The notes under the pieces were generated by a model. The model was given only the letters and a program-made list of their open reading frames with translations, had not been told where the DNA came from and did no database searches. This document shows positions 49,479-51,270 of a DNA stretch of 64,000 bases, piece after piece; within the stretch, counting starts at the first letter, position 1, and each line of letters starts with the position of its first letter. The translations under genes were made by a program, and so were the position numbers. Location of the stretch: contig CAACVI010000045.1 of assembly GCA_900659855.1 (NCBI GenBank), positions 186,985-250,984 of the forward strand. Reading direction: 5' to 3'. The DNA is from Candidatus Desulfarcum epimagneticum (lineage in GTDB: Bacteria; Desulfobacterota; Desulfobacteria; Desulfobacterales; CR-1).

Positions 49479-49507
49479 TTGACAATCCGTCCATAATGTC
49501 ATACAAA
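49479..49507 (+). promoter_or_regulatory. promoter of the cobalamin riboswitch transcript
   Basis: TTGACA (49479-49484) and TACAAA (49502-49507), 17 bases apart, lie immediately upstream of the riboswitch. Confidence 0.6.
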
Positions 49508-49514
49508 CATGAAA

Positions 49515-49690
49515 AAAAGGCGCCTGAAAAGGCTTAATAGGGAATCCCGTTTAAATCGGGAACGGTCCCGCCGCTGTGACTCCGAATAACAAAACCCTTC
49601 AGACATGCTCATCGCCACTGTCCCGGGTCCACCGGGATGGGAAGGCCGTCTGAAAGAGCGGAGAAGTCAGAAGACCTGCCTTTTTCCAAA
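49515..49690 (+). promoter_or_regulatory. cobalamin (AdoCbl) riboswitch aptamer
   Basis: The landmarks of the cobalamin aptamer occur in order: AGGGAATCCCGTTTAAATCGGGAA, GGTCCCGCCGCTGTGACTCC, TCATCGCCACTGTCCCGG and the 3' conserved GAAGTCAGAAGACCTGCC. Spacing is normal. Binding of coenzyme B12 usually favours the downstream terminator, found at 49765. Confidence 0.93.
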
Positions 49691-49764
49691 CACCGTGAAC
49701 GCCTGCGACGCGACAGGGGAAACGGAATATTTCAAAGCGAAAGGGTCAAGAAAACTGGGTGCAG

Positions 49765-49801
49765 CCCTTTAAGCCGGTCGTCGGTTTAAAGGGTTTTTTT
49801 G
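49765..49801 (+). terminator. riboswitch-controlled terminator
   Basis: CCCTTTAAGCCG (49765-49776) pairs with CGGTTTAAAGGG (49782-49793) with one G-U pair, followed by eight T. It lies between the aptamer and the only gene of the unit. Confidence 0.88.
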
Positions 49802-49862
49802 TTTTTCGCCGACGCCGGCCCGCCGGACACAGGTCGGATCAAAAAGGGAGGTGAGGCGAAAC

Positions 49863-50123
49863 ATGAAAACCGGCGTGATTGTTTACATCGCGGGATCAGA
49901 CGACTCAGAGTTGCGGACGGACTGGGATGCCGAGGTTGAAAAGCTGGAGATTGAGGCCGATATGGTGGAAACCATATCCCCGACATCCGGGCATTTCGAC
50001 ATTCCGGACGCCTGGCTGGCCATGACCGTCAAGGGCATGCATCGAATCGAGTGCATGGTGGCCGAGCGCGCGGGGTCCGGAGGTTTAAGGCTCCAGGACA
50101 AGAGACTGCGCCTGTGCGGCTGA
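49863..50123 (+). CDS. 86-residue protein under cobalamin riboswitch control, function unknown
   Basis: GGGAGG lies about 10 bases before the ATG. The protein begins MKTGVIVYIAGSD and is acidic and soluble. It has a possible Cys in RIECMVAER and a C-terminal ELRL-type strand ending LRLCG. There is no signal peptide, membrane helix or family I recognise. It is the only gene between the riboswitch terminator and a following terminator, so cobalamin control is aimed at it alone. A role in cobamide handling or as a partner of a B12-dependent methyltransferase is plausible but unproven. Confidence 0.85.
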   Translation: MKTGVIVYIAGSDDSELRTDWDAEVEKLEIEADMVETISPTSGHFDIPDAWLAMTVKGMHRIECMVAERAGSGGLRLQDKRLRLCG

Positions 50124-50160
50124 CGGTCTTTTGAGCCCTTTGAATTCATTTTAAACCGAA

Positions 50161-50195
50161 ACGGCGGGGAAACGCGTGTCCCCGCCGTTTTTTTT
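50161..50195 (+). terminator. intrinsic terminator after the riboswitch gene
   Basis: ACGGCGGGGA (50161-50170) pairs with TCCCCGCCGT (50179-50188), followed by a run of T to 50195. Confidence 0.9.
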
Positions 50196-50212: not shown

Positions 50213-50375
50213 AAACTCGTAAAAAAGCTTGGGATGGCTAAGTTAAAAATTCCATGTGCTAAAATTTAAGCCACAAGGCGTAGCGCTTATTTTGAATTGA
50301 GGCAATACATGTAGTATGCCTCAATTCAAAATAAGCGCTGCAACACAGTAGATCGGATTTTTTACGACGCCATCA
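50213..50375. repeat. family A repeat, copy 4
   Basis: This copy starts with AAACTCGTAAAAAAG, has the hairpin CGCTTATTTTGAATTGAGGC against GCCTCAATTCAAAATAAGCG, and ends GGATTTTTTACGACGCCATCA. It is immediately upstream of sfsA; the AAAGGAG ribosome site of sfsA begins 6 bases after it. Confidence 0.9.
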
Positions 50376-50390
50376 AAAAAAGGAGTTCGG

Positions 50391-51110
50391 ATGAAACAAA
50401 ATCCGGAAACGGGCCTGGCATGGCCCAGGCTTTTCAAAGGAACGCTGATTAAACGATACAAGCGTTTTTTGGCCGACGCAAAACTGGAAAACGGCGAGGT
50501 CGTGGTCGCCCACTGCCCCAACCCCGGGAGCATGCGCGCCTGCTGCGAGCCCGGACGGACTGTGTATCTTTCATTTCACGACAACCCCAAACGCAAGCTC
50601 AAATACACCTGGGAGATGATCGAGATGCCCGCGTCCCTTGTGGGGGTCAACACCCTGGTTCCCAACCGGCTGGTGAAAAAATCCCTGGAAAACGGCATGA
50701 TCCCGGAAATCAGCTCCCACACCCGGATTCGGTCCGAGGTCCGGGTGTCGAAGTCGTCCCGCCTGGATTTTGTGGCGGAAAAAGAAAACGGGGAAAAATG
50801 CTTTGTGGAGGTGAAAAACTGCGCGCTCGTGGAAAACGGCGCGGCCTCTTTCCCGGACGCGGTCACGGAGCGGGGAAAAAAACACCTGGTCGAGCTTCAA
50901 GAACTGGTCAAAAAAGGGAGCCGGGGCGTGATTTTTTTCCTGATCCAGCGAATGGACGCCGAATCCTTCGCCCCGGCGGCCGACATCGACCCCGCTTACG
51001 CCCGCGAGTTTGAAAAGGCCGTTGAAAACGGCGTGGAGCCGCTGGTGTACGACGTTCAGATCGACCTTTCGGGGATCTCGCTGGGCAAACGAATTTTGAC
51101 AGCATCGTAA
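50391..51110 (+). CDS. sfsA: SfsA DNA/RNA nuclease family protein
   Basis: This 239-residue protein has the family blocks KGTLIKRYKRFLADAKLENGE, AHCPNPGSMRACCEPG, RLDFVAEKENGEKCFVEVKNC (nuclease core), FPDAVTERGKKHL and FFLIQRMDAESFAPA. SfsA was named for sugar fermentation stimulation and later linked to nuclease activity. The stop codon lies inside a family A repeat (GCATCGTAA), so the last residues may come from the repeat. Confidence 0.93.
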   Translation: MKQNPETGLAWPRLFKGTLIKRYKRFLADAKLENGEVVVAHCPNPGSMRACCEPGRTVYLSFHDNPKRKLKYTWEMIEMPASLVGVNTLVPNRLVKKSLENGMIPEISSHTRIRSEVRVSKSSRLDFVAEKENGEKCFVEVKNCALVENGAASFPDAVTERGKKHLVELQELVKKGSRGVIFFLIQRMDAESFAPAADIDPAYAREFEKAVENGVEPLVYDVQIDLSGISLGKRILTAS

Positions 51111-51270
51111 AAAATCCGATCTACTGTGTTCCAGCGCTTATTTTGAATTGAGGCATACTACATGTATTGCCTCAATTCAAAATAAACGCTGCGCCTTGTA
51201 TATCGAATTTTTACGACGCTGTCCCGTGATTTTTTGCGACGCTGTCCCGTGATTTTTTGCGACGCTGTCA
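51099..51270. repeat. family A repeat, copy 5 (inverted relative to copy 4)
   Basis: It begins GACAGCATCGTAAAAAATCCG and contains GCGCTTATTTTGAATTGAGGC with its inverse. It ends with tandem TTTTTGCGACGCTGTC units, the mirror of the tandem modules in copy 1. With copy 4 it brackets sfsA. Confidence 0.9.

Follow-up and report, generated by a model that had tools for sequence, protein, structure and literature searches.

Why should a cobalamin riboswitch stand in front of a single gene for an 86-residue protein? The question arises in the 64,000-nucleotide stretch of the Candidatus Desulfarcum epimagneticum genome analyzed here (the window), where the product of a small riboswitch-headed gene had been described in an initial annotation as a protein with no recognized domain. 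That description stood: we found no significant match to the protein in Pfam, NCBIfam, or PHROGs. Much is known about how B12 reaches the periplasm and passes BtuCD; to our knowledge, the intracellular handling of scarce corrinoid, on its way from importer to adenosyltransferase, is poorly known. The riboswitch class and B12-uptake operons themselves are already known, as set out in passages of two earlier studies (PMC545781, PMC3766115). From the unit in the window, its homologues, and their gene neighborhoods, we argue that the small protein is very probably an unrecognized part of B12 acquisition or handling in sulfate-reducing and related bacteria.

Results

A riboswitch and one small gene form a closed unit in the window

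The only Rfam match in the window is a cobalamin (coenzyme B12) riboswitch aptamer, RF00174, at 49501 to 49697 on the forward strand. With cmscan it scored 95.1 bits (E value 2e-22; gathering score, 31.5 bits) and covered the model from end to end (1-189/189), so the covariance model bears out the full adenosylcobalamin aptamer that had been read from the letters. The B12 box, AGTCAGAAGACCTGCC, lies within the aptamer at 49665 to 49680 (forward strand). By eye, a possible sigma-70 promoter can be read on the same strand as TTGACA (49479 to 49484), a 17-nt spacer, and TACAAA (49502 to 49507); this plausible candidate is unproven and is absent from a consensus promoter scan, which requires the second hexamer to end in T.

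Between the aptamer and the gene, an intrinsic terminator at 49763 to 49800 (forward strand; a 15-pair stem and a T run) would serve as the expression platform, and its hairpin, with inverted-repeat arms at 49765 to 49776 and 49782 to 49793, is present in the minimum-energy structure. A possible antiterminator, AAAGGG at 49740 to 49745 (forward strand, picked out by eye), complements CCCTTT in the 5' arm of this terminator (49765 to 49770). The gene itself follows on the forward strand, with a Shine-Dalgarno sequence, GGGAGGTGA, readable at 49847 to 49855 (forward strand), 7 nt before the ATG at 49863; its 86 codons translate into 86 amino acids, and the stop codon ends at 50123 (gene, 49863 to 50123). 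A second intrinsic terminator at 50159 to 50195 (forward strand), in which arms that are 94% complementary (50159 to 50174 and 50175 to 50190) precede a T run, ends the one-gene unit. Since neither flanking gene is a B12 gene (a YihG-family acyltransferase lies upstream on the opposite strand and sfsA downstream), the riboswitch and small gene are a closed unit here, as first described.

Given this anatomy and the standard behavior of RF00174, we infer that the small gene is repressed by B12. With adenosylcobalamin or another corrinoid in short supply, the terminator behind the aptamer would stay unformed and the 86-residue protein would be made; when corrinoid is plentiful, the aptamer would be bound and transcription would halt.

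Two further repeats were seen nearby. An imperfect inverted repeat (80%; 49796 to 49810 and 49855 to 49869) could let the segment just past the first terminator base-pair with the small gene's start codon and may be a second, translational layer of control or a chance pairing. Downstream, 118-nt inverted repeats that are 91% complementary (50261 to 50378 and 51094 to 51211) flank sfsA (50391 to 51110); this palindromic repeat has about 40 copies in the genome at 91 to 98% identity and resembles a MITE or REP element.

The small protein belongs to a conserved family that follows RF00174

Homologues of about 86 residues, with 30 to 57% identity, occur in many genomes. Among 96 sampled genomes of the same order, the family was present in 23, the host included (24 matches were obtained, from which L024 was discarded as a weak match inside an 825-residue frame), and a profile search across the phylum found it in 47 of 395 genomes. 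A species-level collection yielded 12 loci, some of them on the same contigs as in the same-order search, and wherever their titles were informative they were deltaproteobacterial or Desulfobacterales; tblastn of plasmids found no copy of the gene. The family is missing from most relatives and is therefore an accessory, nonessential part. Pfam searches with 29 homologues returned nothing significant, and a sequence search of the PDB with the family profile gave a single match, which we judged to be chance. An alignment of 60 members shows two invariant glycines, G4 and G58, and near-invariance at I6, Y8, D33, A50, W51, and L84; no His or Cys is invariant (Cys64, 70%; Cys85, 67%; His44, about 37%).

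In 56 of 59 loci, the small gene is preceded on its own strand by an RF00174 match, which lies within 400 nt in 43 of them; because a few contigs entered the set twice (for example, L060/L069), the independent loci are slightly fewer. Each exception has its own circumstances: in L003/L026 the riboswitch, 2.6 kb upstream, heads an operon of outer-membrane protein, CbiK, and small gene; L062 keeps a decayed match of 15 bits at the expected position and orientation, where the B12 box can still be read; and L007 begins at a contig edge, 127 bases before the small gene. In L011, L020/L058, L053, L055, and L064, the small gene or the operon that holds it has two cobalamin riboswitches in tandem ahead of it. 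The host genome has only two cobalamin riboswitches in 3.26 million bases, and hence the association with the small gene is not chance.

These observations bear on the most deflationary reading of the locus, that the frame is a chance ORF, a leader peptide, or what is left of a decayed operon behind a riboswitch. Its lone position between two terminators in the window would suit such a reading, to which we nevertheless assign next to no probability: about 60 homologues keep a near-constant length and the invariant G4 and G58, and stand-alone and operon copies alike retain the protein sequence. With homologues at 30 to 57% identity in many genomes, nearly all behind RF00174, a chance ORF is excluded, and family conservation led us to reject the leader peptide and the degraded unit as well. 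The initial annotation had named in advance, as the outcome that would overturn it, a frame lacking homologues in a degraded unit; the conserved homologues refute that outcome instead. The 86-residue protein is a real conserved family.

The recurrent neighbors are B12-uptake and salvage genes

In relatives, the small gene is often found in B12 operons. It is first in, or lies within, operons with a signal-bearing CbiK, FecCD, an ABC ATPase, Peripla_BP_2, and a CobB/CbiA-type protein (L025, L027, L050, L051, L061, and L067); it stands ahead of a TonB-dependent receptor in L045, L056, L057, L064, and several others; and it lies immediately 3' of CbiK in L069, L073, L074, L076, L077, and L088. 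Upstream of it are CobT in L052 and, judged by sequence appearance, BtuR-like and CbiB-like proteins in L055 and L057, respectively. The Pfam families recovered among neighbors were CbiK, FecCD, ABC ATPase, Peripla_BP_2, TonB receptor, CobQ/CobB-type, and CobT, where Pfam was applied to representatives and the remaining neighbors were identified by sequence similarity or appearance. Elsewhere the gene stands alone, as in the window, and many Desulfobacterales loci are unlinked to uptake genes or CbiK. The neighboring CbiK carries an apparent N-terminal signal, as in the CbiKP type, in L025, L027, L050, L061, L067, L069, L073, L074, L076, L077, and L088.

The riboswitch had been taken as dedicated to a single protein. 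This is true of the window but not in general, as many relatives have the gene with B12-uptake or salvage operons, and because the small gene shares operons with such genes, the target of the riboswitch probably belongs to the usual functional class. Among the roles initially put forward, salvage or corrinoid handling is favored by gene context, whereas nothing was found to support an anti-activator, including one acting on Acs proteins, which we rejected. A link to corrinoid methyl transfer through acsC/acsE, as first proposed, likewise gained no support, the recurring neighbors being uptake and salvage genes instead. The same neighbors weigh against the idea of a B12-sparing factor that replaces or modulates a B12-dependent enzyme when B12 runs short. 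RF00174-family riboswitches do control B12-independent isozymes such as NrdDG and MetE in delta-proteobacteria, according to passages of PMC545781 and PMC11124144, but the small gene's neighbors are not isozymes, and its product has only 86 residues and belongs to no enzyme family; we hold this role to be very improbable.

The main rival to a corrinoid carrier is an adaptor that binds proteins of the uptake machinery: a regulator or assembly factor that binds no corrinoid and acts as adaptor or inhibitor of BtuCD, the TonB system, or CbiK. A small single-domain protein, importer genes and CbiK as recurrent neighbors, and invariant residues that include no metal-ligand set are all what such a factor would show. 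Set against it, the small gene is unlinked to importer genes or CbiK in the window and in many Desulfobacterales loci, and the host genome has no CbiK, which therefore cannot be the general partner. We regard this reading as unlikely, if still a serious contender.

The host is probably a corrinoid salvager

A family-by-family search of the host genome (99.7% complete) found no match to CbiC, CbiK, or CbiX; the genome has CobS and two BtuR-type adenosyltransferases. Of its two cobalamin riboswitches, one heads the small gene and the other an uptake operon, TonB receptor-ExbB-(BtuF+CbiZ)-BtuF-FecCD. The riboswitch regulon of the host thus consists of uptake and salvage genes and, by position, the small gene. 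With no match to the three synthesis families, but with CobS, the adenosyltransferases, and CbiZ in its uptake operon, the host probably obtains its corrinoids by salvage. Within that operon, a fusion at L135:6366-8405 joins a periplasmic binding protein domain to CbiZ, an adenosylcobinamide amidohydrolase, which suggests corrinoid remodeling.

Across the 96 genomes, CbiC, our marker of de novo synthesis, was present in 13 of 23 family carriers versus 37 of 73 noncarriers (Fisher P = 0.64), and we rejected a link between the family and de novo synthesis. Taken with the salvage profile of the host, this independence from CbiC places the small protein in uptake or salvage rather than in ring synthesis or the insertion of cobalt. 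Gene context gives the salvage assignment strong support.

A possible weak resemblance of the predicted fold to class II chelatases

AlphaFold2 predicted, fairly confidently, a b-a-b-a-b-b fold both for the window protein (pLDDT 84, pTM 0.76) and for a second family member (pLDDT 88). With VIA-align, the top 11 rows for the window model were all class II sirohydrochlorin chelatases (SirB/CbiX/CfbA), at Z values of 4.5 to 5.3 that are below the safe threshold of 8. For the second model, CfbA was among the best rows, tied with pyruvate kinase and other unrelated folds. Profile comparison by hhalign aligned the family to the C-terminal domain of CbiK (P = 0.02; 1 of 150 column shuffles scored as high), a domain that hhalign itself picked from a stretch covering nearly the whole mature protein; its probability for chelatase similarity, 1 to 2%, is below the safe threshold. 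A similarity to the CbiX profile was rejected, as 21 of 150 shuffles reached its score. The catalytic histidines of class II chelatases (the GHG motif and a second His) have no counterpart in the family: no His is conserved in 60 homologues, and the alignments place other residues at the GHG position. We treat the models and profiles as a weak lead toward a noncatalytic, chelatase-like scaffold, and we do not claim chelatase membership.

A miniature class II chelatase, working as a homodimer to put cobalt or another metal into a tetrapyrrole or take it out, would draw on the structural rows for the window model, the slight similarity of the family profile to the C-terminal domain of CbiK, and the frequent adjacency of CbiK to the small gene. 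We consider it very improbable, since the catalytic histidines have no counterpart, chelatases do not stand out for the second model, and the family occurs in genomes without corrin-ring synthesis.

Discussion

The explanation we prefer is that of a B12-repressed corrinoid-salvage gene that encodes a cytosolic corrinoid carrier, and taken as a whole we give it an even chance. No signal peptide or lipobox was seen by eye, the MKTGVIVY start forming the first beta strand, and the small protein is thus apparently cytosolic. It would act in the cytosol, in the uptake and salvage arm and outside corrin-ring synthesis, where it would bind corrinoid arriving via a BtuCDF-type importer and pass it to enzymes of adenosylation and loop assembly (BtuR, CobS, and others). 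For this binding and hand-over we put the probability somewhat short of even; without an invariant His or Cys there is no obvious cobalt ligand, which counts against a carrier. The carrier scaffold might perhaps derive distantly from a class II chelatase half-domain. The fuller proposal, in which a carrier dedicated to corrinoid in the cytosol arose from such a half-domain, with the catalytic histidines lost and the tetrapyrrole-binding cleft kept, seems to us quite unlikely.

A riboswitch-linked, apparently cytosolic salvage protein in Desulfobacterota, a group with many corrinoid-dependent pathways, would make the step between importer and adenosyltransferase testable. A gene family missed by the protein libraries used here would also be assigned to a pathway.

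Several known systems offer comparisons. The btuCDF/cbiK operons of delta-proteobacteria have the same riboswitch class and are the same operons that host the small gene in relatives; the B12 passages in the main text of PMC545781, where they are described, make no mention of the gene, and we found no description of the family in the open-licence literature. The class II chelatases CbiK (PF06180), CbiX (PF01903), SirB, and CfbA share with the small protein a possible weak likeness in predicted fold and, in many relatives, a neighborhood, with CbiK next to the small gene. They differ in length (about 120 or 260 residues versus 86) and in their catalytic histidines, the sequence similarity is nonsignificant, and the small family is found in genomes without corrin synthesis. 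A further comparison is with BtuG and BtuH of Bacteroides, accessory B12-binding surface lipoproteins in riboswitch-controlled loci that are needed for efficient B12 acquisition (PMC6143338, PMC8941943). Like the small protein, they are extra proteins, initially of unknown function, in B12-riboswitch uptake loci; unlike it, they are exported to the cell surface and belong to another phylum, whereas the 86-residue protein has no visible signal peptide and, in the window, has a riboswitch unit of its own.
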